Of a stretch of 15,289 nucleotides of DNA, positions 2,330 to 15,289 are shown one piece after another. The DNA is from Gammaproteobacteria bacterium (GTDB lineage: Bacteria > Pseudomonadota > Gammaproteobacteria > UBA11654), in the NCBI GenBank assembly GCA_018672815.1, contig JABHDX010000065.1, forward strand, positions 1 to 15,289, given 5' to 3'. The notes under the pieces are model-generated. The model was not told the origin of the DNA. It made no database searches and worked only from the letters and a program-made list of their open reading frames with translations. How positions within the stretch are numbered: position 1 is the first letter of the stretch; every line of letters begins with the position of its first letter. The position numbers were made by a program, and so were the translations under genes.

Positions 2330-3610
2330 TTACGTGTTTTTACTTATAAAGTATCTTAAGGGTTCATCAATGCCAGGGAGGTTCATTGGTGAATGCCTTT
2401 CTAATCTTTTATGTACTGCATCTAAGGATCTTGAAAGCTCTATAGTGCTAATATTATAATTAGAAAGACTATTAAAAGATGAAGTCTTATTATTTAATCC
2501 AAGTAAGTAATAATAGTGGTGAGTAGGTATTGATGACTCATTAATGATTTTAGTAAATGTTTTCCTGATTGCTTCAGGATATACAACCCAATCAAGATCT
2601 ACTGAGTATTTAATAAGTGATTTTCTAATATTTGAAAGTGGTTTTCTTGGTTCATTAGGATTATAAAAAATAAAATCACCTTTATTCCGAAGTAAACTTT
2701 TACTTCTGAGTAATAACATCTTTTTTAAAATATCCTCAACATGATTATTAATTGGAAATAGCTGATTGAAATTCTTTTTTTTGATATTAATAAATTTCAT
2801 ATCTCTCACTTGGCTCCATTTCATTTTCAAAACATCATTTTTCTTCATACCAGTAATTAACATCATATATATTGCATACCTAGTAATTGCATGAACATTA
2901 TTAACATTTAAAGGATCCCATAGTTGATAAATGAATTTAGGTAACTCCTGTTTCAAATCCATTTGAATATTATTTTTCTTATTGCTGTACTTCAGCTGTA
3001 TGCGATTGACTAAATTAATAGGATTAGAATGAAAGTCTATAAGATTTTTAGTTACAGCAAATGAAAAAATACTTGCTAGCAAACTCATTGCACTATTAGC
3101 AGAAGAGGGGGTGTTAGATTTAGACTCATACCATTCATTGATAAAATTATGAGTAATAGACATGATATTTAGTTTGTGAAATGCTCTTAACTTATTTCCT
3201 AATAGATAATTTTTACAATGGTTAAAATACAGTTCTGAGTATTCTTTATTATTCTTTTTTTCAGTTAAGAATTGAATTGCAATGTCTCTGAATATTAAAG
3301 AGTCAGTAAATTGTATAGTTTTTGTTTTTTTTATCAGGTTTGGATCTAAACCTTTGGATAATATTTTTAGTGTTTGAAAATGCTTATCAATGGCCTCTGA
3401 AATACTGAGCTTGACAGTTGTTCCATGGGTGATTGTTCTTGGATTTCCACCAAAACGTATTCTTCCATATGTAATATATGAAATTCTTCCCTTTGGGTTT
3501 ACTTTTAACCTAAAGCCAGGATATTTACTAAAAGTAATAAAATAAGGACTATCTTTTAAAACAATTGTATCTAAAAATTCATTATCTAGTACATCTGAGG
3601 TAATATTCAT
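2330..3610 (-). CDS. Integrase-like protein of the tyrosine recombinase family with altered catalytic residues
   Basis: From the ATG at 3610 the product has 426 residues; a GTG at 3625 would add five (MYAIY). No ribosome site decides between them, and the GTG lies inside a flanking repeat, so I prefer the ATG. Positions below count from the GTG. The layout is that of a P4-type integrase: an arm-binding-like N-terminus (about 17-95, FITFSKYPGFRLKV), a helical core-binding domain (about 108-200) and a C-terminal catalytic-like domain (about 225-431). TGMKKNDVLKMKW at 258-270 matches the first arginine box but has K261 instead of Arg. YPEAIRKTF (349-357) matches HxxR but has E351 for His and keeps R354. 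LLGLNN (374-379) has L377 where LGH is expected. Y390 is a possible nucleophile. The frame is intact and low in GC with many A-runs. It may be inactive, divergent, or a retained DNA-binding relic. Confidence 0.8.
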   Translation of the reverse strand: MNITSDVLDNEFLDTIVLKDSPYFITFSKYPGFRLKVNPKGRISYITYGRIRFGGNPRTITHGTTVKLSISEAIDKHFQTLKILSKGLDPNLIKKTKTIQFTDSLIFRDIAIQFLTEKKNNKEYSELYFNHCKNYLLGNKLRAFHKLNIMSITHNFINEWYESKSNTPSSANSAMSLLASIFSFAVTKNLIDFHSNPINLVNRIQLKYSNKKNNIQMDLKQELPKFIYQLWDPLNVNNVHAITRYAIYMMLITGMKKNDVLKMKWSQVRDMKFINIKKKNFNQLFPINNHVEDILKKMLLLRSKSLLRNKGDFIFYNPNEPRKPLSNIRKSLIKYSVDLDWVVYPEAIRKTFTKIINESSIPTHHYYYLLGLNNKTSSFNSLSNYNISTIELSRSLDAVHKRLERHSPMNLPGIDEPLRYFISKNT

Positions 3611-3623
3611 ATATATAGCATAC
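3607..3623. repeat. Right copy of the 17-bp imperfect direct repeat
   Basis: TCATATATATAGCATAC pairs with the left copy at 2308-2324 (15 of 17 identical, 1299 bp apart). Read on the minus strand it overlaps the possible GTG start and first codons of the integrase-like gene. A shorter related string, TATAGCATA, recurs at 4546-4554 in the promoter region of the Rieske gene. Confidence 0.35.
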
Positions 3624-3625
3624 AC

Positions 3626-3713: not shown

Positions 3714-4469
3714 CTATAAGAAAACATCGCCGCCATTAGGGCTTAAACATTGTCCAACAAAATGATTTGCAGCGTCAGAAGCCAGAAATACATAAGAGGG
3801 TACTATATCACTCACATTTGCAAGTTCCCCTTTAGGTATATCTGATTTAATTTCATTTAATATTTCTATTGGCACATCTGCTAACATCCTAGTTTCTGTA
3901 GCTCCTGGCGCAACACAGTTTGCACGTATATTCTTAGAACCAATTTCTAATGAGAGAGATCTAGTAAATGAAAGTATTGCTCCCTTAGCAGCAGTATAAT
4001 GTGAGAATCCAGCACTTCCTTTGTAGGCCAGTTGTGATGCTGTATTTATTATCTTTCCATAATTCTTCTTATACATAATTTTTAGTACTTCTCTGGTACA
4101 CAAGAATGTTCCTTTTAGATGTATAGAGATAAGTTCGTCCCACATACTAGATGTCATCTCATGAACTGGAGCACTAGTTGCTATACCTGCATTGTTAACT
4201 AATATGTCAATGGTTCCATGAATGCTATTAATTTCATTAATCATAGATATAACTTCATCCTCGCTTGAAACATTCGCCTGAATAATCTGAGATTGGGGTG
4301 ATAAATGGATGACTTTATTGAGTGTATTTTGAGCGTTCTGAAGCTCTGACTCATCTGGGTAATTAATGATTACTGTGGCTCCTTCAGTTGCAAACGCTTC
4401 TGCAACTCCAGCCCCAATTCCAGAAGATGATCCTGTTATTATTGCAATTCTATTTTCTAATACTGACAT
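3714..4469 (-). CDS. SDR-family NAD(P)-dependent dehydrogenase/reductase (FabG-like)
   Basis: A complete classical short-chain dehydrogenase of 251 residues. The Rossmann motif TGSSSGIG is at 12-19, NNAG at 92-95, the catalytic serine S145, and the Y158-TAA-K162 pair in the YxxxK motif. The asparagine of the usual catalytic tetrad (in VNLxG) is replaced by histidine H117 in IHLKGTF, a substitution I recall from other SDR branches. PGATETRM near 188-195 is the usual PG region after the active site. The family interconverts alcohols and ketones, often 3-oxoacyl or ring-diol substrates, but sequence alone does not give the substrate. FabG itself is usually encoded with fatty-acid genes, which are absent here, so a catabolic role with the divergent Rieske gene is more likely. 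The gene ends next to the AT-rich spacer. No clear ribosome site is present. Confidence 0.88.
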   Translation of the reverse strand: MSVLENRIAIITGSSSGIGAGVAEAFATEGATVIINYPDESELQNAQNTLNKVIHLSPQSQIIQANVSSEDEVISMINEINSIHGTIDILVNNAGIATSAPVHEMTSSMWDELISIHLKGTFLCTREVLKIMYKKNYGKIINTASQLAYKGSAGFSHYTAAKGAILSFTRSLSLEIGSKNIRANCVAPGATETRMLADVPIEILNEIKSDIPKGELANVSDIVPSYVFLASDAANHFVGQCLSPNGGDVFL

Positions 4470-4575
4470 ATGATTAATTATTTATTTTTGCAAGCTTATT
4501 GTTCGTATTCTAGTTTTAATACTCATGATTATTAACTACCATGAATATAGCATATGAAAATAGTTATTTTAATTT

Positions 4576-5604
4576 ATGAACAATAATATGAGAACCAAAA
4601 CAATTAAAGCCTCTTACTATCATGATGAAGGTTTCTTTAATAAAGAAGTAGAAACTATTTTCAAAAAAGAATGGCAATGGGTGGGGAGGTCTGAATCATT
4701 AAAAAAACCTGGTGACTTTATTGCGACTAAGATAGTAGATTACCCAATTATTCTTATCAAAAATAAATCAAACAAAACCTTAGGATTTCATAATGTTTGC
4801 AGACATCGTGCGTCAAAAGTTATTCTTCAATCTGAAGGAAATTGTAAAAAAATTATATGTCCATATCATGGATGGAACTACGACCTAGATGGCAAACTCT
4901 CAAACCCTTCTAACTTTTTTGGATCGGCTGATTTTAATCATAAGAATCATTCACTTTTTCCAATTAGTGTTGAAGAAAAATATGGTTTAATTTTTGCTAA
5001 TCTAGATTCTAAATCTCTAGCACTCAATGAATGGTTGGGTATTTTTTCAAAAACTATTAACCAACATTATAATGATGATCTTATTTTTCATAATGAACTA
5101 TCTTTTGACGTTCATGCAAATTGGAAAACATATGTTGATAATTATCAAGAGGGCTATCACATACCATCAATTCACCCTCAATTAAACCGAGATGTAATCT
5201 GGGAAGAGTACTCTATTGAAAATAATGGAAGCTCCAGTGTTCATTCAGTACCAGAGAGAGCTAACAGTAAACAACCCGGCAGTTTTGGTTGGACATTTCC
5301 GAATTTTATTTTCAATGTATATGGTAGGGGGATTGTCTTTCAAAGAATTGAGCCAATTAAACCAAAATGGTGTAGAGTGGTTTATAATTTATTTAGACCG
5401 CTAGATGTGTCATCTGATGATTTTGAATCCAATGAAGGGAAATATCAATTAGAGGTAAGTCTAGAAGATCAGAATTTAATTCCGGACATTCAACAAAATT
5501 TACAATCAGGAATATATAACACTGGTCCTTTAAGCATGAAGTATGAAGCGAGTGTAGCTTTTTTTCATGATTTGTTAATAAAAAAAATAAGCAAAGGAGT
5601 TTAA
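4576..5604 (+). CDS. Rieske non-haem iron oxygenase, alpha subunit
   Basis: A complete 342-residue terminal oxygenase. The Rieske [2Fe-2S] ligands are C75, H77, C95 and H98 in NVCRHR and CPYHGW. The catalytic domain carries ANWKTYVDNYQEGYHIPSIHP at about 181-201, giving the inter-subunit bridging aspartate D188 and the iron ligands H195 and H200; D298 in LEDQNLIPDIQ is the likely third ligand. The protein inserts oxygen into aromatic rings, or demethylates or hydroxylates amines, using electrons from a separate reductase. The NVCRHRAS and DNYxEGYH style recalls the COG4638 branch that includes choline, betaine and carnitine oxygenases as well as ring hydroxylases, so the substrate is open. 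No beta subunit, ferredoxin or reductase gene is nearby. A second ATG at 4588 (residue 5) is an alternative start; neither has a visible ribosome site. It overlaps none of its neighbours and leads the operon with the NmrA-like gene. Confidence 0.92.
   Translation: MNNNMRTKTIKASYYHDEGFFNKEVETIFKKEWQWVGRSESLKKPGDFIATKIVDYPIILIKNKSNKTLGFHNVCRHRASKVILQSEGNCKKIICPYHGWNYDLDGKLSNPSNFFGSADFNHKNHSLFPISVEEKYGLIFANLDSKSLALNEWLGIFSKTINQHYNDDLIFHNELSFDVHANWKTYVDNYQEGYHIPSIHPQLNRDVIWEEYSIENNGSSSVHSVPERANSKQPGSFGWTFPNFIFNVYGRGIVFQRIEPIKPKWCRVVYNLFRPLDVSSDDFESNEGKYQLEVSLEDQNLIPDIQQNLQSGIYNTGPLSMKYEASVAFFHDLLIKKISKGV
5593..5599 (+). promoter_or_regulatory. Strong ribosome binding site inside the end of the Rieske gene
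   Basis: AAAGGAG lies in the last codons of the Rieske gene, six bases before the ATG of the NmrA-like gene. The stop TAA (5602-5604) and that ATG (5606) are separated by one base, so the two genes are probably translationally coupled. It is one of the clearest Shine-Dalgarno sites in the window; most neighbouring genes lack one. Confidence 0.8.
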
Positions 5605-5605
5605 A

Positions 5606-6463
5606 ATGATTTTACTAACAGGTGCTACTGGTAAAACAGGATCTGCAACAGCAATAGAATTATCCAATCTAAATGTGCCCTTTAGAGCACTTATAAGAAG
5701 CGAAGAAAAGCGTGCTCAAATAGAAGCTTTGGGAGGAGAAGTTATTATTGGTTCAGCTGAAGATAGAGAGACTATTGACCAAGCTATGATTGGTGTTGAA
5801 AAACTACTGATTATTCTACCCAATTGTGAAAATCAACTAGAAATGGAAACACAATTAGTGGATTCAGCAAAAATAGAAGGTGTTCAACACATTGTATATA
5901 TGTCTTCTGTAGAAGCTGATGAAGAATGCTCTAGCCCAATACCTAAATTGCATTGGGACACTGAGGTCTATATAAAAAATTCTGGTATGCATTGGACCAT
6001 GATTAAGCCTAATTTTTATATGCAGAATTTTATTGGCTCATCTAAAACTATTGTTGAACAAAATAAATTCTTTCTTCCTATGAGTGAAGGAAAAACAGGA
6101 ATGATTGATACTCGAGATGTAGGGAAGGTTATTGCTAAAGTTCTTTCAGAAGAAGGCCATGAAGGTCAGAGTTATCAAATAACTGGTCCAGAAATTTTAT
6201 CATTTTATGATGTTGCTGAAAAATTTAGCTCTGTTTTAAAACGAGAAGTTTTATATATTGATATGCCTATAGATGCATATAAAAATATCTTATCCCAATT
6301 CCTAACTAATCAATGGCATTTGGACTCAGTCATCGATCTCTTTGGTGGAATTGCGGAAGGTGGAATTGAATATAAAACAGATACATTTGAAGATCTTATT
6401 GGAACCCCTCCTAGATCATTAGAGGACTTTATTGAAGAACATAGATCTCTCTATACTGCATAA
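5606..6463 (+). CDS. NmrA-like atypical SDR, NAD(P)-binding protein
   Basis: A complete 285-residue protein of the atypical SDR (NmrA/YtfG) type. It opens MILLTGATGKTG with the nucleotide-binding GATGKTG at 6-12, follows with ALIRSEEKRAQIEALGGEVIIGSAED (the conserved arginine after strand two suggests NADP preference), and has the VQHIVYMSSVEAD stretch near 92-104 and MIKPNFYMQNF near 132-142. No YxxxK catalytic pair is evident, as usual in this group, whose members range from redox sensors to quinone or nitroalkane-type reductases. One base separates it from the Rieske gene and it has a strong ribosome site, so it almost certainly serves the same pathway. It could be a reductase acting on the oxygenase product or a redox-sensing partner; nothing seen marks it as the electron donor, since no FAD or iron-sulphur motif is present. 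It ends 14 bp from the convergent permease gene. Confidence 0.85.
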   Translation: MILLTGATGKTGSATAIELSNLNVPFRALIRSEEKRAQIEALGGEVIIGSAEDRETIDQAMIGVEKLLIILPNCENQLEMETQLVDSAKIEGVQHIVYMSSVEADEECSSPIPKLHWDTEVYIKNSGMHWTMIKPNFYMQNFIGSSKTIVEQNKFFLPMSEGKTGMIDTRDVGKVIAKVLSEEGHEGQSYQITGPEILSFYDVAEKFSSVLKREVLYIDMPIDAYKNILSQFLTNQWHLDSVIDLFGGIAEGGIEYKTDTFEDLIGTPPRSLEDFIEEHRSLYTA

Positions 6464-6477
6464 ATCATCTGTTTTTT

Positions 6478-7755
6478 CTAGTCCTGCTCTTGCCATCCCT
6501 TCCTTACAATAATGAATGAAAATAGTATTGAAGGGATGCCCATAAAGGCAGCCAACAAAAAGAAATTAGACCAACCATAATTATCAACAAGTTGGCCTGA
6601 AAAACCGCTCAGTATAATCCCTAATAAAAACATGATTGATGTAAACAAGGCATATTGTGATGCAGCATAATTTCTATTTGTAAGGCTAGAAAGAAACGCT
6701 ATAAAGATAGATCCAGAAAATCCTAGAGCAAAATTATCAGCACTAATAGTAAGAATTAAAATCTGTATATTGGGACCCATACTCTCGAGTAATAAAAAAA
6801 ATAAGTTGGTAAATGCCAATAAAATACTGCTTATAATTAAGGGCTTGGGTATACCATATCGGACGACCGAAAGCCCTCCAATAAATGTTCCTAAAACAGT
6901 CACTGCAAAACCAAATACCTTTGTAATAGTTGCAATTTCGCTCAAATCAAAACCTATATCAATATAAAAAGGATTCGCAACAACATTAACCAATAAATCA
7001 CTCATACGATACACCCCAATAAATATAATCAACATCAAGGACCAACTGCCATTCCTTCGAAAAAACTCCATGAATGGCTCTACAATAGACTTCCTAAATG
7101 AATATCCCTCTTTATCTAATGATTTTTTTTTGAAAGGCTCAGGGATTAACAACACTGTTATTATGCCAACTATCATCAAAGGCGCTAAAGCTTGATAAGC
7201 AATTTTCCATGAATAATAATCAGCTAAATATAAAGCTCCTGCAGCAGAAAATAAATACGAAATTCTATACCCCAATTGATAACTAGCACCCATAGCGCCT
7301 TGATATTTATTACTTATAATTTCAACCCGATAAGCATCAATAGCAATGTCTTGACTAGCTGACGCAATTGCTATTCCTACGCTTATAATTGCCAAAAGGC
7401 CAAGCTCAGTTTGAGGATCTATATTAGGAATGAAAAGCAAACCAACAAAAATCATAGTTTGTGTCACAATTATCCATGACCTTCTTTGTCCCATAACTTG
7501 TGATAAGTATTTAATAGACACATTATCAAGTAAGGGAGCCCATAAAAATTTAATTGCATAAATAATACCCACCCATGCAAACATGGTAAGGTCGGTCATA
7601 CTAATCTTAACTGAAGCCAACCAAGCAGAAAGACTGGCAAACAGTAATGGGTGAGGCAACCCTGCAGAAAATCCTAAAAAAATCATCCGAATGACTTCTG
7701 GCCTCAAATAGACCTTTAGACCTAACCGTTGCAATTCTTGATTACTAGAATTCAT
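6478..7755 (-). CDS. ampG: AmpG-type MFS permease (muropeptide transporter family)
   Basis: A complete inner-membrane protein of 425 residues with about a dozen hydrophobic segments. The first helix reads MIFLGFSAGLPHPLLFASL and is followed by SAWLAS and AIKFLWAPLLD, matching the GFSSGLP...AWL...ALKFLWAPLLD signature of AmpG. AmpG proteins import 1,6-anhydro-muropeptides (GlcNAc-anhMurNAc peptides) into the cytoplasm for peptidoglycan recycling and influence AmpC induction. E. coli AmpG is about 490 residues; this shorter form lacks the C-terminal extra segments. Other MFS carriers share the fold, and the residues PHP in place of PLA in the signature leave some doubt on substrate. The start at 7755 overlaps the 3' end of the exonuclease III gene by 11 bp on the same strand, so the two are co-transcribed. 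Confidence 0.82.
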   Translation of the reverse strand: MNSSNQELQRLGLKVYLRPEVIRMIFLGFSAGLPHPLLFASLSAWLASVKISMTDLTMFAWVGIIYAIKFLWAPLLDNVSIKYLSQVMGQRRSWIIVTQTMIFVGLLFIPNIDPQTELGLLAIISVGIAIASASQDIAIDAYRVEIISNKYQGAMGASYQLGYRISYLFSAAGALYLADYYSWKIAYQALAPLMIVGIITVLLIPEPFKKKSLDKEGYSFRKSIVEPFMEFFRRNGSWSLMLIIFIGVYRMSDLLVNVVANPFYIDIGFDLSEIATITKVFGFAVTVLGTFIGGLSVVRYGIPKPLIISSILLAFTNLFFLLLESMGPNIQILILTISADNFALGFSGSIFIAFLSSLTNRNYAASQYALFTSIMFLLGIILSGFSGQLVDNYGWSNFFLLAAFMGIPSILFSFIIVRKGWQEQD

Positions 7756-8518
7756 AATCGTACTGATTAACTAAGGGAGCATGATCGGAGAACCTTTGAT
7801 CTTTATAAACATAAGAATCCAGAATACTTCGTTCAAAATGACTTGTTAGAATCTGATAATCAATACGCCACCCAACATTATTTTGATAGGCTTTACCTCT
7901 ATTAGACCACCAAGTATATTCATGATCATTTTGATTGACTGTACGAAAACTATCAATACAAGACAAATCATCAAAAATAAAATCTAGCCAGGCTCGCTCT
8001 TTAGGCAAGCAACCAGAATTCTTCTGGTTGGCTTTCCAGTTTTTTATATCTATTTCTTTATGAACAATATTGATATCACCACAAAATATATAAGGCCTTT
8101 TACTATTGATTTTTTTCTTTAGTAAATCGCTAAATTCATCCAAAAATTGATATTTCAGATCTTGTCTTATTGTGCCCGTGGTACCAGAGGGAAAATAAAC
8201 AGAAGCAATATTAAAGTTATCAAAACTGCATTCAATATACCTCCCTTCACGGTCAAATTCTTTTGAACCTAATCCTTCTATGATTTTATTGGGTTTCTTT
8301 TTTGAAAATATTGCAACACCACTATAGCCTTTTTTCTCTGCGGTATGATGAAAGCACTGGTATGCCTCGGGCCAAAAAATAGTGTCCTGAATATCCCCCA
8401 ACTGTGCTCTCACCTCTTGTAGGCAAATTAAGTCAGGATCTTCTTTCTTAAACCAATCAAATAGGCCTTTTTTTGCAGAGGCTCTTATGCCATTAACATT
8501 CAAAGTGATAATCTTCAT
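7745..8518 (-). CDS. xthA: Exodeoxyribonuclease III (AP endonuclease), Crc-like branch
   Basis: A complete 257-residue member of the exonuclease III/APE1 family, which cuts DNA 5' of abasic sites and degrades 3' ends in base-excision repair. All catalytic positions are intact: N7, E35 in CLQE, Y108, D148 and N150 in FCGDIN, D220 in WRIDY, and D245-H246 in SDHAP. The body closely resembles Pseudomonas Crc as I remember it: IKNWKANQ, ERAWLDFIF, YTWWS, NVGWRIDYQILT and RFSDHAPLVNQYDYEF all have direct Crc counterparts. Crc lies next to pyrE in Pseudomonas, as this gene does, but Crc has lost these catalytic residues. It is therefore best called a true nuclease of the lineage from which Crc arose. 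The gene is divergent from pyrE across 57 bp and continues into ampG. Confidence 0.93.
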   Translation of the reverse strand: MKIITLNVNGIRASAKKGLFDWFKKEDPDLICLQEVRAQLGDIQDTIFWPEAYQCFHHTAEKKGYSGVAIFSKKKPNKIIEGLGSKEFDREGRYIECSFDNFNIASVYFPSGTTGTIRQDLKYQFLDEFSDLLKKKINSKRPYIFCGDINIVHKEIDIKNWKANQKNSGCLPKERAWLDFIFDDLSCIDSFRTVNQNDHEYTWWSNRGKAYQNNVGWRIDYQILTSHFERSILDSYVYKDQRFSDHAPLVNQYDYEF

Positions 8519-8575
8519 AACTAAAAATATCTATGTAGTGGTAAACTATTTATACACTATTTAAGTTTATATCGA

Positions 8576-9226
8576 ATGGAAAACTACAAACAAGAATTTA
8601 TTAAATTTTCACTGAATCAAGGTGTGCTTAAGTTTGGTGAATTTGAACTGAAGTCAGGAAGAATAAGTCCTTATTTTTTTAATATGGGTCTCTTTAACAC
8701 AGGAAGCACTATTGCAAAACTTGGGGATTTTTATGCCCAAGCATTGGTAAACAAAGAAAAAAACTTTGATTTATTATTTGGTCCTGCCTATAAAGGAATT
8801 CCAATTGTGACATCTCTAGCTAGCTCTTTGTCGAAAAACCATAACATAAATAAACCTTTCACATTTAATAGAAAAGAAACAAAAGATCATGGAGAAAAAG
8901 GTCAGCTTGTTGGGGCTCCAATTGAAGGAAAAGTACTGATTGTTGATGATGTGATTACAGCAGGAACTGCTATACATGAAGCCAGTAATTTGATTTCAGA
9001 ACTTAATGGCGAAGTGGTAGGAATATTGATTTCACTAGACAGACAAGAAAAAGGCCAAGGAGAGCTATCAGCTGTAGAGGAAGTATCGCAAACGCTTAAT
9101 GTCCCCGTTATATCAATCGTGACATTGAATGATATTATTGAATACATTATTGATGATGGTGGAGAACTTAATAAGTTTTTAGATCAAATTCGTAATTATC
9201 GAGAGCAGTATGGAATTAATGCTTAG
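8576..9226 (+). CDS. pyrE: Orotate phosphoribosyltransferase
   Basis: A complete 216-residue enzyme that joins orotate to PRPP to give orotidine 5'-phosphate in pyrimidine synthesis. The PRPP-binding motif [13 protein letters not shown] is at 120-132. [10 protein letters not shown] at about 68-77 and the mobile loop [13 protein letters not shown] at 97-109 are both typical of PyrE, as is the early [11 protein letters not shown]. Length matches the family (about 213). No Shine-Dalgarno sequence precedes the ATG, and the 57-bp spacer to xthA (8519-8575) is too AT-rich to place a promoter confidently. The stop TAG at 9224-9226 overlaps the stop of the convergent dut gene. In E. coli slmA lies between pyrE and dut; it is missing here. 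Confidence 0.97.
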
Positions 9227-9681
9227 GATTTTCCAGTATGGCCAAAACCTCCATCGCCTCTCTCCGATTCATCAAACTCTTCAACCACTCTAAACTGAAC
9301 TTGTTCGACAGGAATGAAAATCATTTGAGCTAATCGTAAACCCGGCTCTATAAGTATTGTTTCTTTGCCACGGTTCCAACATGAAATATAAACCTGGCCT
9401 TGGTAATCTGAATCAATTAATCCAACAAGATTCCCCAGAACCAATCCTTTTTTATGTCCTAGCCCAGATCGTGGTAATAAAACAGCCGCAAGACTGGGGT
9501 CATTAATATGAATTGCTATTCCACTGGGTATTAGTTCTGTCATACCTGGTTTTAGCTCAATACTCTTGTCAATACATGCCTGCAAGTCGATTCCAGCTGA
9601 TCCAGCTGTTTGATATTCAGGTAAATTAAATTCTTTACTGATCCTAGAATCAAGAACTTTTAAGTCGATAGTTTTTTTCAT
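9223..9681 (-). CDS. dut: Deoxyuridine 5'-triphosphate nucleotidohydrolase (dUTPase)
   Basis: A complete 152-residue trimeric dUTPase that hydrolyses dUTP to dUMP and pyrophosphate, supplying thymidylate synthesis and keeping uracil out of DNA. All five motifs are present in order: AGSAGIDL (26-33), PRSGL (70-74), [13 protein letters not shown] with catalytic D90 (83-95), RLAQ (116-119) and the C-terminal lid [10 protein letters not shown] (141-150). The length equals the E. coli enzyme. Its stop TAA (complement of 9223-9225) overlaps the TAG of convergent pyrE. The usual E. coli partner coaBC is not upstream; instead the start faces the rpmB promoter across 137 bp. No clear ribosome site is visible. 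Confidence 0.97.
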
Positions 9682-9750
9682 AGGTATTATTTTAATATTT
9701 TTATCTTAATCTCTCTAGAAACATATAAACAATCTTTTTTTCAACAGGGG

Positions 9751-9779
9751 TTGCTATGTTAACCTTCTCTTGGTATAAA
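9751..9779 (+). promoter_or_regulatory. Extended -10 sigma-70 promoter of the rpmB-rpmG-mutM operon
   Basis: TTGCTA (9751-9756) and TATAAA (9774-9779) are separated by exactly 17 bp, and TGG immediately before the -10 gives the extended TGn element. Transcription would begin near 9786, about 33 bases before the L28 start codon. This is the best sigma-70 promoter I see in the window, as expected for ribosomal proteins. It also shows that the in-frame ATG at 9756, which lies within the -35/spacer region, cannot be the translation start. Confidence 0.75.
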
Positions 9780-9818
9780 ACCTGTCCTAGAATCAAATTT
9801 TTCATGGAAGCAAGAGAA

Positions 9819-10055
9819 ATGTCTAAAGTATGTCAAGTCACAGGCAAGAAAACATCAAGCGGTAACAACGTTTCGCATGCGAATAATAGGACTAGGAGAA
9901 AGTTTTTTCCAAACCTACATACGCATCGTATTTGGGTTGAGAGTCAAAATAAATTTGTAAAATTACGAATAACAAAAAAAGGACTTAGAACCATAGATAA
10001 ATTAGGTATTGATCATGTACTCTCAAACCTAAAAGAATTTGGGGAGAAAGGATAA
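9819..10055 (+). CDS. rpmB: 50S ribosomal protein L28
   Basis: The product has 78 residues, the same length as E. coli L28, and begins [20 protein letters not shown], followed by [17 protein letters not shown] and [13 protein letters not shown], all family hallmarks. L28 is a late-binding protein of the large ribosomal subunit. I chose ATG 9819 because the protein then aligns end to end with the family and because a longer in-frame start at 9756 falls inside the promoter. GGAAG lies about 8-12 bases before the ATG. The stop TAA shares its last base with the ATG of rpmG, giving the coupling sequence TAATG. The radC gene often found just upstream in gammaproteobacteria is absent. Confidence 0.97.
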
Positions 10056-10210
10056 TGCGCGAAAAAATAAAACTCGTCTCATCAGCAAAGACAGGTCATT
10101 ACTATACAACGACCAAAAATAAGAAAGAACATCCTGATAAAATGGAAACTAAAAAATTTGATCCAACTATTAGAAAGCATGTTCTTTATAAAGAATCTAA
10201 GATCAAATAA
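10055..10210 (+). CDS. rpmG: 50S ribosomal protein L33
   Basis: A 51-residue protein starting [20 protein letters not shown] and ending [11 protein letters not shown], matching the core of E. coli L33 (VSSAGTGHFYTTTKNKR, KKFDPxxRxHVxYKExKIK). It lacks the CxxC zinc-ribbon pairs, so it is the zinc-independent form. E. coli L33 has four more N-terminal residues (MAKG before IREK); here the start is trimmed so that its ATG overlaps the rpmB stop by one base. GGGGAGAAAGG, ending just before the ATG, can serve as ribosome site. The gene is followed by mutM after 36 bases with no terminator. Confidence 0.96.
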
Positions 10211-10246
10211 TTCAACTCTCTTCAAATTATAGGCATAATTATCAAT

Positions 10247-11068
10247 ATGCCAGAACTGCCTGAAGTTGAAGTAACTAAAAGAGCTTTAGAGCCTCATATA
10301 GTAGACGAAATAATCAAGAAAATAATTATTAGGAATCATCGTCTCAGGTGGCCCATTAATTACTACTTATTAAAAAAACTAGAAAATAAAAAAGTTATCT
10401 CTCTGTCTAGAAGAGGAAAGTATATATTTATCAATAGTGAGTCAGGTACTGCCATGATTCATTTAGGTATGTCGGGTAGTTTAGGTGTCTTGGATCGAAA
10501 CAGTGCTCCAGAAAAACACGACCATTTTGATATTCAGTTGCAAAATCAAAAAATAATTAGATTCAATGATCCTAGAAGGTTTGGCTGCTTTGAATGGGCA
10601 GGTAAAACACCAGAAAACCATAGATTAATCTCACATTTAGGTCTGGAACCTTTAGAGCAAGAATTTACTGGAAGTTATTTATATCAAATTAGCCGTAACA
10701 GACAAACTTCCATTAAATCCTTTATTATGAATGCCTCTATTGTTGTGGGTGTAGGAAATATTTATGCCAATGAATCACTGTTCATCAGCGGTATTAGCCC
10801 CAAAAGAATGGCAAAAAATATTTCTAAAAATAGATACATTGTTTTATCTCAATCAATAAAAAAAGTCTTACAAAACTCCATCAAGCAGGGTGGGACTTCC
10901 CTACGAGATTTCTCCTTTACCTATCAAGAAAAAAAGGTTGGCTACTTTAAGCAAAGTTTGTTTGTATATGATAGAGAAAACAAACAATGTAAACACTGCG
11001 ATGGAACCATTAAAAGAATCATTCAATTAGGTAGAAGCACTTTCTATTGTGTTCAATGTCAGCATTAA
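10247..11068 (+). CDS. mutM: Formamidopyrimidine-DNA glycosylase (Fpg/MutM)
   Basis: A complete 273-residue bifunctional glycosylase/AP lyase that removes 8-oxoguanine and formamidopyrimidines from DNA. The mature N-terminus PELPEVE supplies the catalytic proline P2 and E3. K58 in RRGKYIF matches the conserved lysine of the family. HLGMSGSL (about 72-79) is the intercalation-loop region, and NASIVVGVGNIYANES holds the asparagine helix-two-turn-helix signature. The C-terminal zinc finger has C248, C251, C268 and C271, with the DNA-contacting R263 between them. Length is close to the E. coli protein (269). It is the third gene of the rpmB-rpmG-mutM operon, a common gammaproteobacterial order. 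It ends four bases from the convergent ggt gene, with no terminator between them. Confidence 0.97.
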   Translation: MPELPEVEVTKRALEPHIVDEIIKKIIIRNHRLRWPINYYLLKKLENKKVISLSRRGKYIFINSESGTAMIHLGMSGSLGVLDRNSAPEKHDHFDIQLQNQKIIRFNDPRRFGCFEWAGKTPENHRLISHLGLEPLEQEFTGSYLYQISRNRQTSIKSFIMNASIVVGVGNIYANESLFISGISPKRMAKNISKNRYIVLSQSIKKVLQNSIKQGGTSLRDFSFTYQEKKVGYFKQSLFVYDRENKQCKHCDGTIKRIIQLGRSTFYCVQCQH

Positions 11069-11072
11069 AGCA

Positions 11073-12770
11073 CTAGTAAAAATCTATTTCTGAATTACCA
11101 ATTAATGCTCTTGGGTCCGATGATGCTTTTACTGAGCCATCAGATTTTTTATACGTGACAACCTGCATATTTCCATAATCACCAATTTCTTTCAAAGAAT
11201 GGCCCTTAGATAAAAGACTATTAATAACTTCCTGACTGAAAGCATCTTTCTCATGATGAATTTCATCTGGTAAATACTGATGATGGAATCTTTTTCCAGA
11301 TGTCATTTGGTTGGCATCAGCTCCCTCCGTCCATGAAATTAAAGACAACAACACCATCGTAATAATTTTTGAGCCTCCAGGTGTCCCTAGAATAGCAAGA
11401 TCATCATTGGATTCAATAAAAGTAGGGCTCATACTTGAAAGCATTCTTTTGTTTGGCTCTATCGAATTAGCTTCACCATGGACCAAGCCATATCTATTGG
11501 GAGCAAAAGCTTTAGCAGAAAAATCATCCATTTCATTGTTTAAAATAAATCCTGCAGATGGAAGCATATAACCTGAACCAAACCAGGTATTAATTGTTTG
11601 GGTGGTAGCCACTCGGTTACCATCTTTGTCTAAAATAGAAAAATGAGTTGTCTCAGTACCTTTTTCTTTAGAATCTTTTCCATCATTTTCTCCCATCTGT
11701 TTGCTCGGCGTAGCTCGATCTAAGTTGATAGAAGAAGAATGCTTAATTGCATTATTGTGACTAATGAGTTTTAAAGTTGGAACTTCTACAAAATCAGGGT
11801 CGCCTAGAAATTCTGATCGATCCTTATAGGCTCTTCTCATTGCCTCCGTGATCAAATGAACAAATGCATCTGTATTCATATCTCTATAATTATATTCTGA
11901 GATAATATTTAAGATTGTTGCAATTGTGGTTCCTCCTGATGAAGGAGGCGGAGCTAGAGTTAACTGATAGTCAGAAAACTGCACCTTAAGAGGTTTTCTT
12001 TCCACAATCGAATAATTTGCAAAATCATCTGTGGTCCATATAGATCCATTCTTGTTGGATTCTTCAACCATAGTACGAGTGAATTGACTCTTATAAAAAC
12101 CATCATGTCCTTGCCTAGCAATGACTCTCAATGTAGTGGCGAGCTCGGGTTGCTTTATCAATGTTCCAACCTTAGGGGTTTCACCATCAATAGTAAAAGT
12201 CTCTAAAAATTTTGGTGACATTACATCTATTGCAATAGCAACCTTCAAGGCTGTATTGAATCTCTCATAAACAGAAAATCCATTCTCTGCTAATGAAATA
12301 GCGGGAGCTAAGACTTGATCAAGTGGCAATACTCCATATTTCTCTGAAACATGTGTTAAGCCTGCAGCTAAACCTGGTATGCCAGCTGCTAATGCACCAT
12401 CAAGGGACACTCTAGGCACGACGTTGCTATTTTCGTCTAGATACATATCTGAATCAGATTTTCCGGGTGCCTTCTCTCTAGCATCAACAAAAACCTCAAA
12501 ACTATCAGATGCTCGATGCAGAAGGAAAAAGGCTCCTCCACCAATACCAGAGCTATAAGGCTCTACCACTGATAAAGCAGCGCTGACTGCAACAGCTGCA
12601 TCAAAAGCATTGCCTCCTTGGCTTAAAATATCATAGCCAGCTTGAGTTGCTAGAGGATGTGCTGATGCAATTGCTGGATGAACCGGTGCGATACTGTCAG
12701 CAGAAGCGGTCCAAGAAATAACATGAGATAAAATGATGAAATATTTGAGGTGATTAATGATTCTAAACAT
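11073..12770 (-). CDS. ggt: Gamma-glutamyltranspeptidase precursor
   Basis: A complete 565-residue periplasmic enzyme with an N-terminal signal peptide (hydrophobic stretch about 9-19, TASADS near the likely cleavage site). The protein self-cleaves before T374 in ETTHFSIL, the new N-terminal nucleophile of the small subunit. Other conserved points are R98 in DAREKAP, GGNAFDAAVA (52-61), SGIGGGAF (74-81), D415-D416 in NNEMDDFSAK, SSMSPT (445-450) and the TPGGSK oxyanion loop (463-468). It hydrolyses or transfers the gamma-glutamyl group of glutathione and related peptides, freeing cysteinylglycine for reuse. It starts four bases after the coaD stop, so it is the last gene of an rsmD-coaD-ggt block. 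In E. coli coaD is the neighbour of mutM; here ggt sits between them. No Shine-Dalgarno sequence is apparent. Confidence 0.96.
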   Translation of the reverse strand: MFRIINHLKYFIILSHVISWTASADSIAPVHPAIASAHPLATQAGYDILSQGGNAFDAAVAVSAALSVVEPYSSGIGGGAFFLLHRASDSFEVFVDAREKAPGKSDSDMYLDENSNVVPRVSLDGALAAGIPGLAAGLTHVSEKYGVLPLDQVLAPAISLAENGFSVYERFNTALKVAIAIDVMSPKFLETFTIDGETPKVGTLIKQPELATTLRVIARQGHDGFYKSQFTRTMVEESNKNGSIWTTDDFANYSIVERKPLKVQFSDYQLTLAPPPSSGGTTIATILNIISEYNYRDMNTDAFVHLITEAMRRAYKDRSEFLGDPDFVEVPTLKLISHNNAIKHSSSINLDRATPSKQMGENDGKDSKEKGTETTHFSILDKDGNRVATTQTINTWFGSGYMLPSAGFILNNEMDDFSAKAFAPNRYGLVHGEANSIEPNKRMLSSMSPTFIESNDDLAILGTPGGSKIITMVLLSLISWTEGADANQMTSGKRFHHQYLPDEIHHEKDAFSQEVINSLLSKGHSLKEIGDYGNMQVVTYKKSDGSVKASSDPRALIGNSEIDFY

Positions 12771-12774
12771 CTAA

Positions 12775-13251
12775 TTATTTGCCATATTTTTTATTTAATG
12801 CGTTCTGAACGATGGGGTGAACAAAACCAGTAATGTCTCCCCCTTCTTGCGCGATCTGCCTGATCAAGGAGGAAGATATAAAGGCATTTTGATCGCCGCT
12901 ACTTAGAAATATAGTTTCAATATCATCTGCCAATCTTTTATTCATGCTTGCAAGCTCAAACTCATACTGACCATCAGCAGGCGATCTTAAGCCACGAACA
13001 ATAACATGTGCATCTGATTGTTTAGCAAAATCGATTGTTAGCCCGCTGTACTTTTGTACCTCAATGTTGCTAAAAGCATTTAAAACTTCATTCACCATGT
13101 TCAATCTTTCATCAATATCAAATAGTGGACTTTTTTCTGGACTAGAAGCAACTGCAACCAATAAAGTCTCGAAGAGTGTTGAGGCCCTTCTGATAATTTC
13201 AAAATGACCATTGGTAATTGGATCAAAAGTACCCGGATACACTGCGATCAT
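12775..13251 (-). CDS. coaD: Phosphopantetheine adenylyltransferase
   Basis: A complete 158-residue nucleotidyltransferase of the PPAT family, which makes dephospho-CoA from 4'-phosphopantetheine and ATP, the penultimate step of coenzyme A synthesis. The start MIAVYPGTFDPITNGH carries the TNGH nucleotide motif (13-16), RGLR is at 86-89, FELASMNKRL at about 98-107, and ISSSLIRQIA at 125-134 is the second nucleotide-binding motif. Length matches E. coli (159). AAAAGGAGAG (complement of 13256-13265) gives a good ribosome site, with six bases between the GGAG core and the ATG. It lies 19 bp after rsmD and four bp before ggt, in one transcription unit. Confidence 0.97.
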   Translation of the reverse strand: MIAVYPGTFDPITNGHFEIIRRASTLFETLLVAVASSPEKSPLFDIDERLNMVNEVLNAFSNIEVQKYSGLTIDFAKQSDAHVIVRGLRSPADGQYEFELASMNKRLADDIETIFLSSGDQNAFISSSLIRQIAQEGGDITGFVHPIVQNALNKKYGK

Positions 13252-13270
13252 TTTTCTCTCCTTTTAATAA

Positions 13271-13831
13271 CTAATTACAACAAAGTAGATAATAATATAC
13301 CTTTCCAGCTTTTGATTTTCTATATATGTTCCATAAAGGTTCAACTACCTTTAAGTCTAAAGGAACATTTGATTCATAGAACACATAGCCTTTTTTTACG
13401 ATCCAATTATTTATGATAATCAAACTTAAGATTTCATTAATTGCATAACTCCCATAAGGCGGATCTAAAAAAATAATATCAAATCTAGCTTCTTTATTTT
13501 TCTGCTTAAGAAACTGAATTGCATCCACTTGCTTATTTTTATAATTATCGATTTGAAACTTAGCCAGCTGTTGGTCTAGTGCCATGCTAGCTTTTTTAGA
13601 TCTCTCAATAAATATAACTTCTTCTGAGTCTCTAGATAATGCCTCGAGACCTAAAATACCTGACCCTGCAAATAAATCTAGTACTCTCTTATTGGCAATC
13701 CGTGCATGCAACCAATTAAACAATGTGACCCGAACCCTGTCAGTCGTTGGCTTGATCCCTTCTTCGGCTATCCTGATTTTGCTATTTTTAAGTGATCCAC
13801 CTATGATTCTAATTGTTTTAGACTTATTCAT
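13271..13831 (-). CDS. rsmD: 16S rRNA (guanine(966)-N(2))-methyltransferase
   Basis: A complete 186-residue SAM-dependent methyltransferase that modifies G966 of 16S rRNA during 30S assembly. Family marks in order are RIIGGSLK (8-15), the PTTDRVRVTLFNWL motif (28-41), the SAM-binding DLFAGSG (52-58), the acidic E76 after the next strand, and the catalytic DPPY (123-126). Length is near that of E. coli RsmD (198). It is divergent from rpoH. In E. coli and many relatives ftsY, ftsE and ftsX lie between these two genes; here only 163 bp separate them. Confidence 0.96.
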   Translation of the reverse strand: MNKSKTIRIIGGSLKNSKIRIAEEGIKPTTDRVRVTLFNWLHARIANKRVLDLFAGSGILGLEALSRDSEEVIFIERSKKASMALDQQLAKFQIDNYKNKQVDAIQFLKQKNKEARFDIIFLDPPYGSYAINEILSLIIINNWIVKKGYVFYESNVPLDLKVVEPLWNIYRKSKAGKVYYYLLCCN

Positions 13832-13839
13832 ACCATTCT

Positions 13840-13868
13840 ATTATATAGCGCATTTTTATACTAAATAA
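13840..13868 (-). promoter_or_regulatory. Candidate promoter of the rsmD-coaD-ggt unit
   Basis: Read on the minus strand, TATAAT is the complement of 13840-13845 and a poor -35, TTATTT, is the complement of 13863-13868, 17 bp away. The -10 is perfect but its leftmost base is only nine bases before the rsmD ATG, so the mRNA would have an almost absent leader. The -35 is weak and the region is AT-rich, so this is tentative. Confidence 0.3.
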
Positions 13869-13919
13869 CTTAATATTTTTGATTCTTCTATAATTCATAA
13901 ATTATTGATTTATAGAATG

Positions 13920-13939
13920 TTTTATCATTTTTTATCATT
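13920..13939 (+). repeat. Exact 10-bp tandem repeat before the rpoH operator
   Basis: TTTTATCATT occurs twice back to back (13920-13929 and 13930-13939), ending four bases before the CIRCE element. Each unit contains TATCAT, a possible -10. The second (13933-13938) pairs with a weak -35, TTATAG (13910-13915), at 17 bp and would start transcripts near 13945, at the edge of CIRCE. The period is about one helical turn. Confidence 0.6.
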
Positions 13940-13943
13940 ATTT

Positions 13944-13970
13944 TTAGCACTCTAGGTACAAGAGTGCTAA
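13944..13970. promoter_or_regulatory. CIRCE operator (HrcA binding site) upstream of rpoH
   Basis: The sequence is TTAGCACTC, nine spacer bases (13953-13961), then GAGTGCTAA. This is the textbook CIRCE consensus with both nine-base arms perfect and the canonical spacer length. CIRCE is bound by HrcA, a heat-shock repressor whose folding is assisted by GroEL. The element ends 24 bases before the rpoH ATG, so binding would block transcription or initiation of rpoH. The arms could also fold in the mRNA leader, but no T-run follows, so it is not a terminator. hrcA itself is not in the window. The divergent rsmD start is 113 bp away and is less likely to be a target. Confidence 0.93.
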
Positions 13971-13994
13971 AATTATCTTGTATTTTAAGAAATT

Positions 13995-14852
13995 ATGACT
14001 ACAGAACTAACATTAAAAAATGAACTGATGCTAGCAGGCCCAATGGGAAGCCTGGAAGCTTATATTGGTATTGTTAACCAAGCTCCTCTCCTCTCAAGAG
14101 ATGAAGAAAGAGAACTCGCTTATCGATATCAACATCATAATGATCTGGATGCTGCGAGAAAACTTATCATGTCACAACTCCGTTTTGTAGTACATATTGC
14201 TAGAAGCTACAATGGTTATGGTTTATCCCTTGCTGATCTTATACAAGAAGGCAATATTGGACTCATGAAAGCTGTGAAAAAATTTGATGCTGATCGTGGT
14301 GTCAGATTGGTTACTTATGCTGTTCATTGGATAAGAGCAGAAATTCATGAGTTTATTTTTAGCAATTGGAAACTAGTTAAGGTTGCTACTACCAAAGCAC
14401 AAAGAAAATTATTCTTTAATTTGAGAAAATCAAAAAAGAACTTGGGGTGGTTAACACAACAAGAAACAGAATCTATAGCGAGAGATCTTGGTGTAAAGCC
14501 CAAAGAGGTATCCACTATGGAACAAAGGTTCGCCTCTAAAGATATGGCTTTTGATGGTAAAGATACTGAAGATGATTTTGTCTCGCCATCAGGTTTCCTG
14601 CCTGCACCTGATTCTGATCCTGCTGAAACGATTGAAAGCTACAACTGGCTTGAACAAAATACAGAACTGCTAGCTCAAGCTATGGAAAAACTAGATATAA
14701 GAAGCAAAGAAATTCTCACTGCTCGATGGTTGAGCGATGATAAACTAACGCTAAAAGCATTGGCTAAAAAATATAACATCTCCTTAGAAAGAGTAAGGCA
14801 GATAGAAGAGAATGCGATTATAAAGCTTCGTGAATCCTTCACCCAAGCTTAA
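13995..14852 (+). CDS. rpoH: RNA polymerase sigma-32 (heat-shock) factor
   Basis: A complete 285-residue sigma-70 family protein that directs RNA polymerase to heat-shock promoters. Region 2 is clear: FVVHIAR (64-70), the DLIQEGNIGLMKAVKKFD core-binding stretch (81-98) and GVRLVTYAVHWIRAEIHEF (102-120). The RpoH box QRKLFFNLR, found only in sigma-32 proteins, is at 136-144 and helps separate RpoH from RpoD and RpoS. Region 4.2 has the helix-turn-helix LTLKALAKKYNISLERVRQIEENAIIKL (251-278). Length matches E. coli (284). AAGAA before the ATG is a weak ribosome site. A perfect CIRCE operator lies 24 bp upstream, so expression is probably HrcA-repressed. The 3' end overlaps trmB. Confidence 0.98.
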   Translation: MTTELTLKNELMLAGPMGSLEAYIGIVNQAPLLSRDEERELAYRYQHHNDLDAARKLIMSQLRFVVHIARSYNGYGLSLADLIQEGNIGLMKAVKKFDADRGVRLVTYAVHWIRAEIHEFIFSNWKLVKVATTKAQRKLFFNLRKSKKNLGWLTQQETESIARDLGVKPKEVSTMEQRFASKDMAFDGKDTEDDFVSPSGFLPAPDSDPAETIESYNWLEQNTELLAQAMEKLDIRSKEILTARWLSDDKLTLKALAKKYNISLERVRQIEENAIIKLRESFTQA

Positions 14853-15289
14853 TCATAAAAGAGAAATCACAAGCTACGTCCGAAGAGCTGGAAGAATAAC
14901 CTCTGGGCAAAAAAATGCTTGGGAAAAATATTGGCGATTATTTGGAATTAAAAATACAAAAGACATTTTTAATGCAGATGATATTTTTAATAATTCCAAT
15001 AAAAAACTAATAATTGAAATTGGTTTTGGCAATGGAGAAATCTTAATTGATAACGCTCTACGATACCCAGGTAGTAATTTCATAGGTATTGAAGTTTATG
15101 AATCAGGAATTGGACAATGCTTAATCAATCTATCAGATAAAAGATTAACCAATGTAAAATTAATTAATGAAGATGCAAAGAAAGTTTTAAACAATAATCT
15201 CAATGATCAAATAATTGATCAAATTAATATCTTTTTTCCTGACCCTTGGCCAAAAAAAAGGCATCATAAAAGGAGATTGATTGATAAGA
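14830..15289 (+). CDS. trmB: tRNA (guanine(46)-N(7))-methyltransferase (3' end cut by window)
   Basis: An open frame of 153 codons runs to the window end. The protein contains TSYVRRAGRITSGQ (14-27), like the RSFVRRxGRLTKGQ N-terminus of TrmB, the SAM motif EIGFGNGE (63-70), FIGIEVYESGIG (84-95) and the signature FPDPWPKKRHHKRR (136-149). TrmB adds the 7-methyl group to G46 in the tRNA variable loop. Family members have about 210-240 residues, so roughly a third is missing. The only ATG, GTG or TTG between the upstream in-frame stop (14821) and the conserved region is GTG at 14830, so the gene overlaps rpoH by 23 bases and is probably translated from the rpoH mRNA. That would put a tRNA modification gene under heat-shock/HrcA control. 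Confidence 0.93.
   Translation, partial: MNPSPKLNHKREITSYVRRAGRITSGQKNAWEKYWRLFGIKNTKDIFNADDIFNNSNKKLIIEIGFGNGEILIDNALRYPGSNFIGIEVYESGIGQCLINLSDKRLTNVKLINEDAKKVLNNNLNDQIIDQINIFFPDPWPKKRHHKRRLIDK

Follow-up and report, generated by a model that had tools for sequence, protein, structure and literature searches.

The rpoH locus and its CIRCE dyad

The window, meaning the whole stretch of 15,289 nucleotides analysed from a contig of a Gammaproteobacteria bacterium, carries rpoH, the gene of the heat-shock sigma factor sigma32, and rsmD as its divergent neighbour. The two genes are separated by an intergenic region of 163 bp, and the following elements are found in it and on its flanks.

13271 to 13831, minus strand: rsmD, divergent neighbour of rpoH, above the cut-off of TIGR00095
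13903 to 13914, plus strand: TATTGATnTATA block upstream of the operator, conserved in the family and unexplained
13944 to 13952 and 13962 to 13970, plus strand: arms of the CIRCE dyad (predicted HrcA operator), with 0 mismatches and perfect in 10/10 family rpoH genes
13944 to 13973, plus strand: candidate sigma70-type promoter inside the dyad, made of TTAGCA (13944-13949), 18 bp and TAAAAT (13968-13973), with TG at 13965-13966
13995 to 14852, plus strand: rpoH, sigma-32, 285 aa, above the cut-off of TIGR02392

The rpoH reading frame scores 378.2 bits against the RpoH equivalog model TIGR02392 (cut-off 323.1). Its ATG at 13995 is separated by 24 bp from the dyad, which occupies the promoter or leader region of this heat-shock gene. 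The dyad, TTAGCACTC-TAGGTACAA-GAGTGCTAA at 13944-13970, has the form of the CIRCE inverted repeat TTAGCACTC-N9-GAGTGCTAA, the consensus used here as given in PMC545781, and shows 0 mismatches to it. The original prediction of a perfect CIRCE 24 bp ahead of rpoH is confirmed by this match and by the score of the gene. At up to three mismatches, no other CIRCE was found in the window, and shuffled versions of the window (n = 200) contain on average 0.01 sites at the same tolerance. A chance match was rejected on the basis of this low expectation and of the conservation of the dyad in the family, where the spacers have diverged.

The TATTGATnTATA block is identical at nine of its 12 positions in all 11 family sequences, and at two more in 10 of the 11. 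In E. coli MG1655, ftsYEX stands between rsmD and rpoH, whereas it is not found there in the window. Farther away, at 2330-3625 on the minus strand, the window encodes a tyrosine-recombinase-type integrase (PF00589, 36.9 bits) among neighbours that are otherwise metabolic and housekeeping genes.

Conservation of the dyad and presence of hrcA

The nearest relative is a MAG of the uncultured Gammaproteobacteria bacterium FRAM_RAS_EGC1617_bin4 (locus L001, genome G001, about 1.4 Mb), to which positions 3997-15275 of the window align as one block with 85% DNA identity over 11.3 kb. This genome contains groESL as well as hrcA, followed by grpE and then by a dnaK-like open reading frame. Its HrcA matches the equivalog model at 316 bits (cut-off 197), and its GroEL also exceeds the equivalog cut-off. 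A scan of G001 for further HrcA targets, as proposed with the original prediction, identifies two CIRCE sites only when three mismatches are tolerated; the site at rpoH is perfect, and that at groES has one mismatch. Since none precedes hrcA (L081) at this tolerance, HrcA of G001 seems not to repress its own gene.

Absence of hrcA, or loss of the dyad in close relatives, had been held to speak against the prediction, and the family of G001 (11 genomes) displays neither pattern. Indeed, rpoH was found in 10 of these genomes and is preceded by a perfect CIRCE in all 10, with invariant arms and diverged spacers, and hrcA is present not only in the closest relative but in 10 of the 11 genomes overall. 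The exception is G081, which gave no hrcA match and yet carries a perfect rpoH CIRCE. Judging from these relatives, the organism of the window probably also possesses hrcA.

The wider distribution was determined from an RpoH-alignment scan of genome contigs, of which the best 80 of 528 loci were analysed. CIRCE lies within 400 bp of rpoH at 51 of these best 80 loci (37 perfect, 13 with one mismatch, one with two), and the other 29 are at least six mismatches away from it. Of the genomes behind the 80 loci, 42 in a set of 50 and 10 in the remaining 30 gave an hrcA match. When both features are crossed over the best 80 of 528 loci, 49 have both and 26 neither, the five discordant cases being L006 and L041, with CIRCE and without an hrcA match, and L032, L042, and L064, with hrcA and without an rpoH CIRCE. 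The association gives a Fisher p of 1.6e-15, a figure that ignores kinship and is inflated by it. Mapped onto the RpoH tree, the two traits undergo five changes apiece, two of those of CIRCE being forced by supported branches. Significance is out of reach of a paired sign test of the two on this tree, which offers too few independent changes for a kinship-corrected test of co-occurrence.

The comparison of related rpoH upstream regions that had been called for was also carried out in the order that includes a Woeseiaceae MAG (L023), where rpoH was found in 57 of 59 genomes. CIRCE is present in 52 of these 57 upstream regions, namely in 5/5 of the family, in L023, in 24/25 of L248-L272 and in 22/26 of L273-L298. 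The five members without it (L253, L276, L277, L280, and L281) lay outside the hrcA searches. Placing rpoH under HrcA, as originally predicted, thus stands as the best reading given CIRCE and hrcA in the relatives, but it is not specific to one lineage, considering the sites at 51 of the best 80 of 528 loci. One of the loci with both hrcA and an rpoH CIRCE, L034, comes from a record named Klebsiella pneumoniae MAG. This label is probably wrong, because the RpoH of this locus shares only 55% identity with that of the window.

Promoter-like elements overlapping the operator

When the rpoH regions are aligned on the operator, a conserved GGAACT appears just upstream of it. GGAAC or TGAAC starts at -16 (27 sites) or -17 (14 sites) in 41 of the 50 non-family rpoH sites, and nine of the 50 are without the box at these positions. 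No such box was found at -16/-17 in 11 hrcA sites, nor was the word found at -15 to -17 in 42 groES sites (drawn from 41 genomes, G001 among them), its 13 occurrences at groES all being elsewhere. Outside the family, 45 CIRCE-bearing loci of the order, from clades partly shared with the 50-site set, were compared, and all but three have an NGAAC box that starts between -15 and -17 (42/45); L251, with a perfect CIRCE and GGAACT, comes in addition to this count.

The box is read here as the -35 element of what we take to be the sigmaE consensus, a GGAACT-type hexamer followed after 17 bp by a TCnnA -10 element, with a motif spacing calibrated on E. coli rpoH. Seventeen bases past the hexamer stand a T and a C that are the final two bases of the CIRCE left arm, and spacer position 3 is mostly A, which completes TCnnA. 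A pattern with an unconstrained spacer retrieved 28 further genomes, and 27 of them have this A, compared with five of the 42 groES sites. Both the letters and the spacing of a sigmaE-type promoter are therefore found in non-family relatives. Judged by these motifs, most relatives examined have an operator merged with a sigmaE-type promoter, the left arm being part of the -10 element. Of 369 genomes sampled from the class, 117 contain the composite, versus 0 for a reversed-pattern control, and all 30 composite loci opened (in 30 of the 117 genomes) are rpoH. Among the 29 CIRCE-less rpoH loci, eight carry a sigmaE-type promoter with the same gap (antisense strand, 0; shuffle mean, 0.18).

An RpoE above the equivalog cut-off was identified in 29/29 non-family genomes searched. 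The sigmaE-type motif was also sought ahead of rpoE itself, where autoregulation would have given a separate indication of sigmaE specificity. The outcome was mostly negative, with the motif in only two of the 20 regions, each time with an identical gap (antisense, 1/20), so that the reading of this motif by RpoE in these genomes is a prediction.

The family of the window differs on both counts. None of its 11 genomes has an RpoE above the equivalog cut-off, and in G001 the RpoE search gave as its best match an ECF sigma factor that, apart from the general ECF model, does not reach the cut-off of any named family shown. No sigmaE box stands 16-17 bp before the operator in any of the 11 family sites, including that of the window, where the corresponding letters are TTTTTTA. 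The family keeps the operator, an AT-rich triplet ending in T29 and the upstream TATTGATnTATA block. The losses of RpoE and of the sigmaE box agree with each other and may represent one event.

A second promoter-like element is associated with the right arm. A plain promoter scan of this stretch of the window gives four sigma70-type matches versus 1.3 expected, which is weak alone. The T at operator position 29 (window 13973) is nevertheless shared by 46/50 non-family and 11/11 family rpoH sites, and it is found in 28/28 further genomes versus 2/42 groES sites. The AAT that follows the right arm is specific to rpoH sites and, with the arm, typically reads TGCTAAAAT, a candidate extended sigma70-type -10 element of which the window has a version too.

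Out of 117 opened CIRCE site rows, in which some sites are repeated and second sites represent part of the matches for some genomes, 115 precede rpoH, groES or hrcA. The exceptions, L114 and L193, are both two-mismatch sites; the first, in an Ursidibacter genome (G069) without an hrcA match and away from these three genes, is probably due to chance. At groES, CTTGA starts at -28 in 32 of the 42 sites and a conserved C-T-A block is found immediately ahead of the operator, whereas a strict sigma32-promoter expression matches 17/42. These elements fit a sigma32-type promoter, the consensus of which is CTTGAAA-CCCCAT (PMC545781). In the family, the groES sites read CTTGAA...CCyTAT in 9/9 loci. The second CIRCE sites of the family, 10 in number (L083, L160, L162-L168, and G090:C4:9916-9942), all carry the same single mismatch, with the right arm GACTGCTAA, and the nine that were opened all precede groES. 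HrcA may thus be tighter on rpoH than on groESL in this family. Nothing convincing as a sigma32 promoter was found before hrcA in the family.

The original prediction had envisaged a two-layer cascade in which HrcA and GroEL control RpoH, which in turn controls the chaperones. However, groESL has a CIRCE and a sigma32-type promoter of its own, so that HrcA would act on it directly and, if RpoH activates groESL, also via rpoH. Such wiring resembles a feed-forward loop more than a simple cascade.

Predicted control of rpoH by HrcA and its alternatives

The dyad is probably, at roughly 80%, a working HrcA operator that represses rpoH transcription, HrcA acting together with GroEL to directly occlude the rpoH promoters. 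The operator itself, its conservation, the presence of hrcA and groESL in relatives, and the overlap with promoter-like elements support this at the sequence level. In the unstressed cell, HrcA assisted by GroEL would occupy the dyad and block RNA polymerase. Misfolded proteins would then engage GroEL, HrcA would be released, and rpoH and groESL would be transcribed, after which RpoH would activate groESL, from its sigma32-type promoter, along with other chaperone genes until newly made GroEL restores HrcA activity. In most relatives examined, the blocked elements would be a sigmaE-type promoter, with its -10 taken from the left arm, and a sigma70-type extended -10 on the right arm. Because the operator overlaps both, rpoH of these relatives should need a sigma factor as well as the release of HrcA. 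In the family of the window, which is without a recognised RpoE and sigmaE box, the only targets left to HrcA at rpoH would be the sigma70-type promoter and any promoter farther upstream.

In E. coli, the RpoH level is set mainly after transcription, by mRNA structure, chaperone binding, and FtsH. This physiology leaves room for a dyad that binds HrcA and hardly alters an RpoH level set mainly after transcription, and L032, L042, and L064, which have hrcA and no rpoH site, would suit such a minor fine-tuner. It is nonetheless unlikely, as the rpoH CIRCE is perfect in 10/10 family genes, whereas the second sites, of which nine were opened and all are groES, have one fixed mismatch in 10/10. The rpoH site is accordingly under no weaker constraint than the second sites. 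More serious difficulties arise if the dyad is taken as an RNA hairpin of the rpoH leader, acting in stability, as a thermometer or as an attenuator, instead of a DNA operator. As RNA it folds strongly (z -3.3), and a terminator-like match was reported at the dyad. However, among 190 distinct sites, none of the 72 changed arm pairs is compensated (strands collapsed, the split between G-U and broken pairs being unused). Base identity is kept, as for a protein operator. Moreover, transcripts from the proposed promoters would start within or past the dyad and would lack the hairpin, and the sites track hrcA, all of which makes a leader hairpin improbable. A terminator at the dyad was rejected, as the relatives aligned on the operator show no general T-run after it.

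It could also be supposed that the organism of the window has lost hrcA and that its dyad is a decaying relic, for which G081, with a site and no hrcA match, offers a parallel. This is highly improbable given that all 18 arm positions are intact, compared with a diverged spacer and flanks, and that the nearest relative has hrcA.

A working HrcA operator thus being the preferred reading, its counterparts in known systems can be compared. A CIRCE ahead of rpoH was predicted in 2004 for Geobacter sulfurreducens (Genome Biol., Table 8; PMC545781), at position -51 and, as in the window, perfectly matching the consensus, with further CIRCE sites at groESL and at hrcA-grpE-dnaK-dnaJ. It is a deltaproteobacterial prediction in which the rpoH site belongs to one among several genomes studied, whereas the site described here is recurrent in Gammaproteobacteria and fused to a promoter. 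The available text of PMC545781 mentions no overlap of that rpoH CIRCE with sigmaE or sigma70 elements. The HrcA-GroEL feedback assumed for the rpoH dyad would be that of Campylobacter jejuni, in which HrcA binding is stimulated by GroE and HrcA pulls down GroEL (PMC8533110). The E. coli rpoH gene is listed as a known RpoE target in PMC5493296. In strain MG1655, TGAACT-N17-TCTGA stands upstream of it with the same gap as the composite but, unlike in the composite, no CIRCE lies within 300 bp (best, seven mismatches), and a control search for HrcA gave no match in E. coli.

An overlap of CIRCE with a sigmaE promoter at rpoH was not found described in the literature searched, a scope that left subscription journals mostly aside. 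An earlier study of the same regulators in this class may already list rpoH sites. The overlap is absent from the available portions of PMC545781, PMC2725144, PMC3224663, PMC11764788, PMC3989490, PMC8533110, PMC5493296, and PMC4577112. The apparent novelty lies in the geometry, in which an established operator shares bases with established promoter types, the bare link between CIRCE and rpoH being already in print for G. sulfurreducens.

Textbook accounts generally present HrcA repression and the sigma32 cascade as two parallel strategies and, on the basis of E. coli, describe the control of rpoH as mainly post-transcriptional. If the operator works, about one-third of the sampled genomes of the class (117/369) couple the gene of the sigma factor to GroEL occupancy, through bases shared with an envelope-stress promoter, which makes a two-input gate. 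It is conceivable, at somewhat less than even odds, that the fused sigmaE promoter and HrcA operator constitute the ancestral rpoH switch of Gammaproteobacteria, the HrcA-less E. coli type having kept the bare sigmaE promoter and the streamlined family of the window, after losing RpoE, having retained the operator by itself. If so, envelope stress and chaperonin occupancy would be read by the same bases of one 27-bp dyad, and the E. coli heat-shock paradigm would be derived, representing one half of a more ancient switch with two inputs. Families in which one input has been lost provide a natural experiment for such a gate.

In one branch of the family that does not include the window (L137-L141), a hairpin of the form CTCGAAA-loop-TTTTCG(A/G)G stands directly before the rpoH start codon and may act as an RNA thermometer or as a hairpin at the ribosome site.
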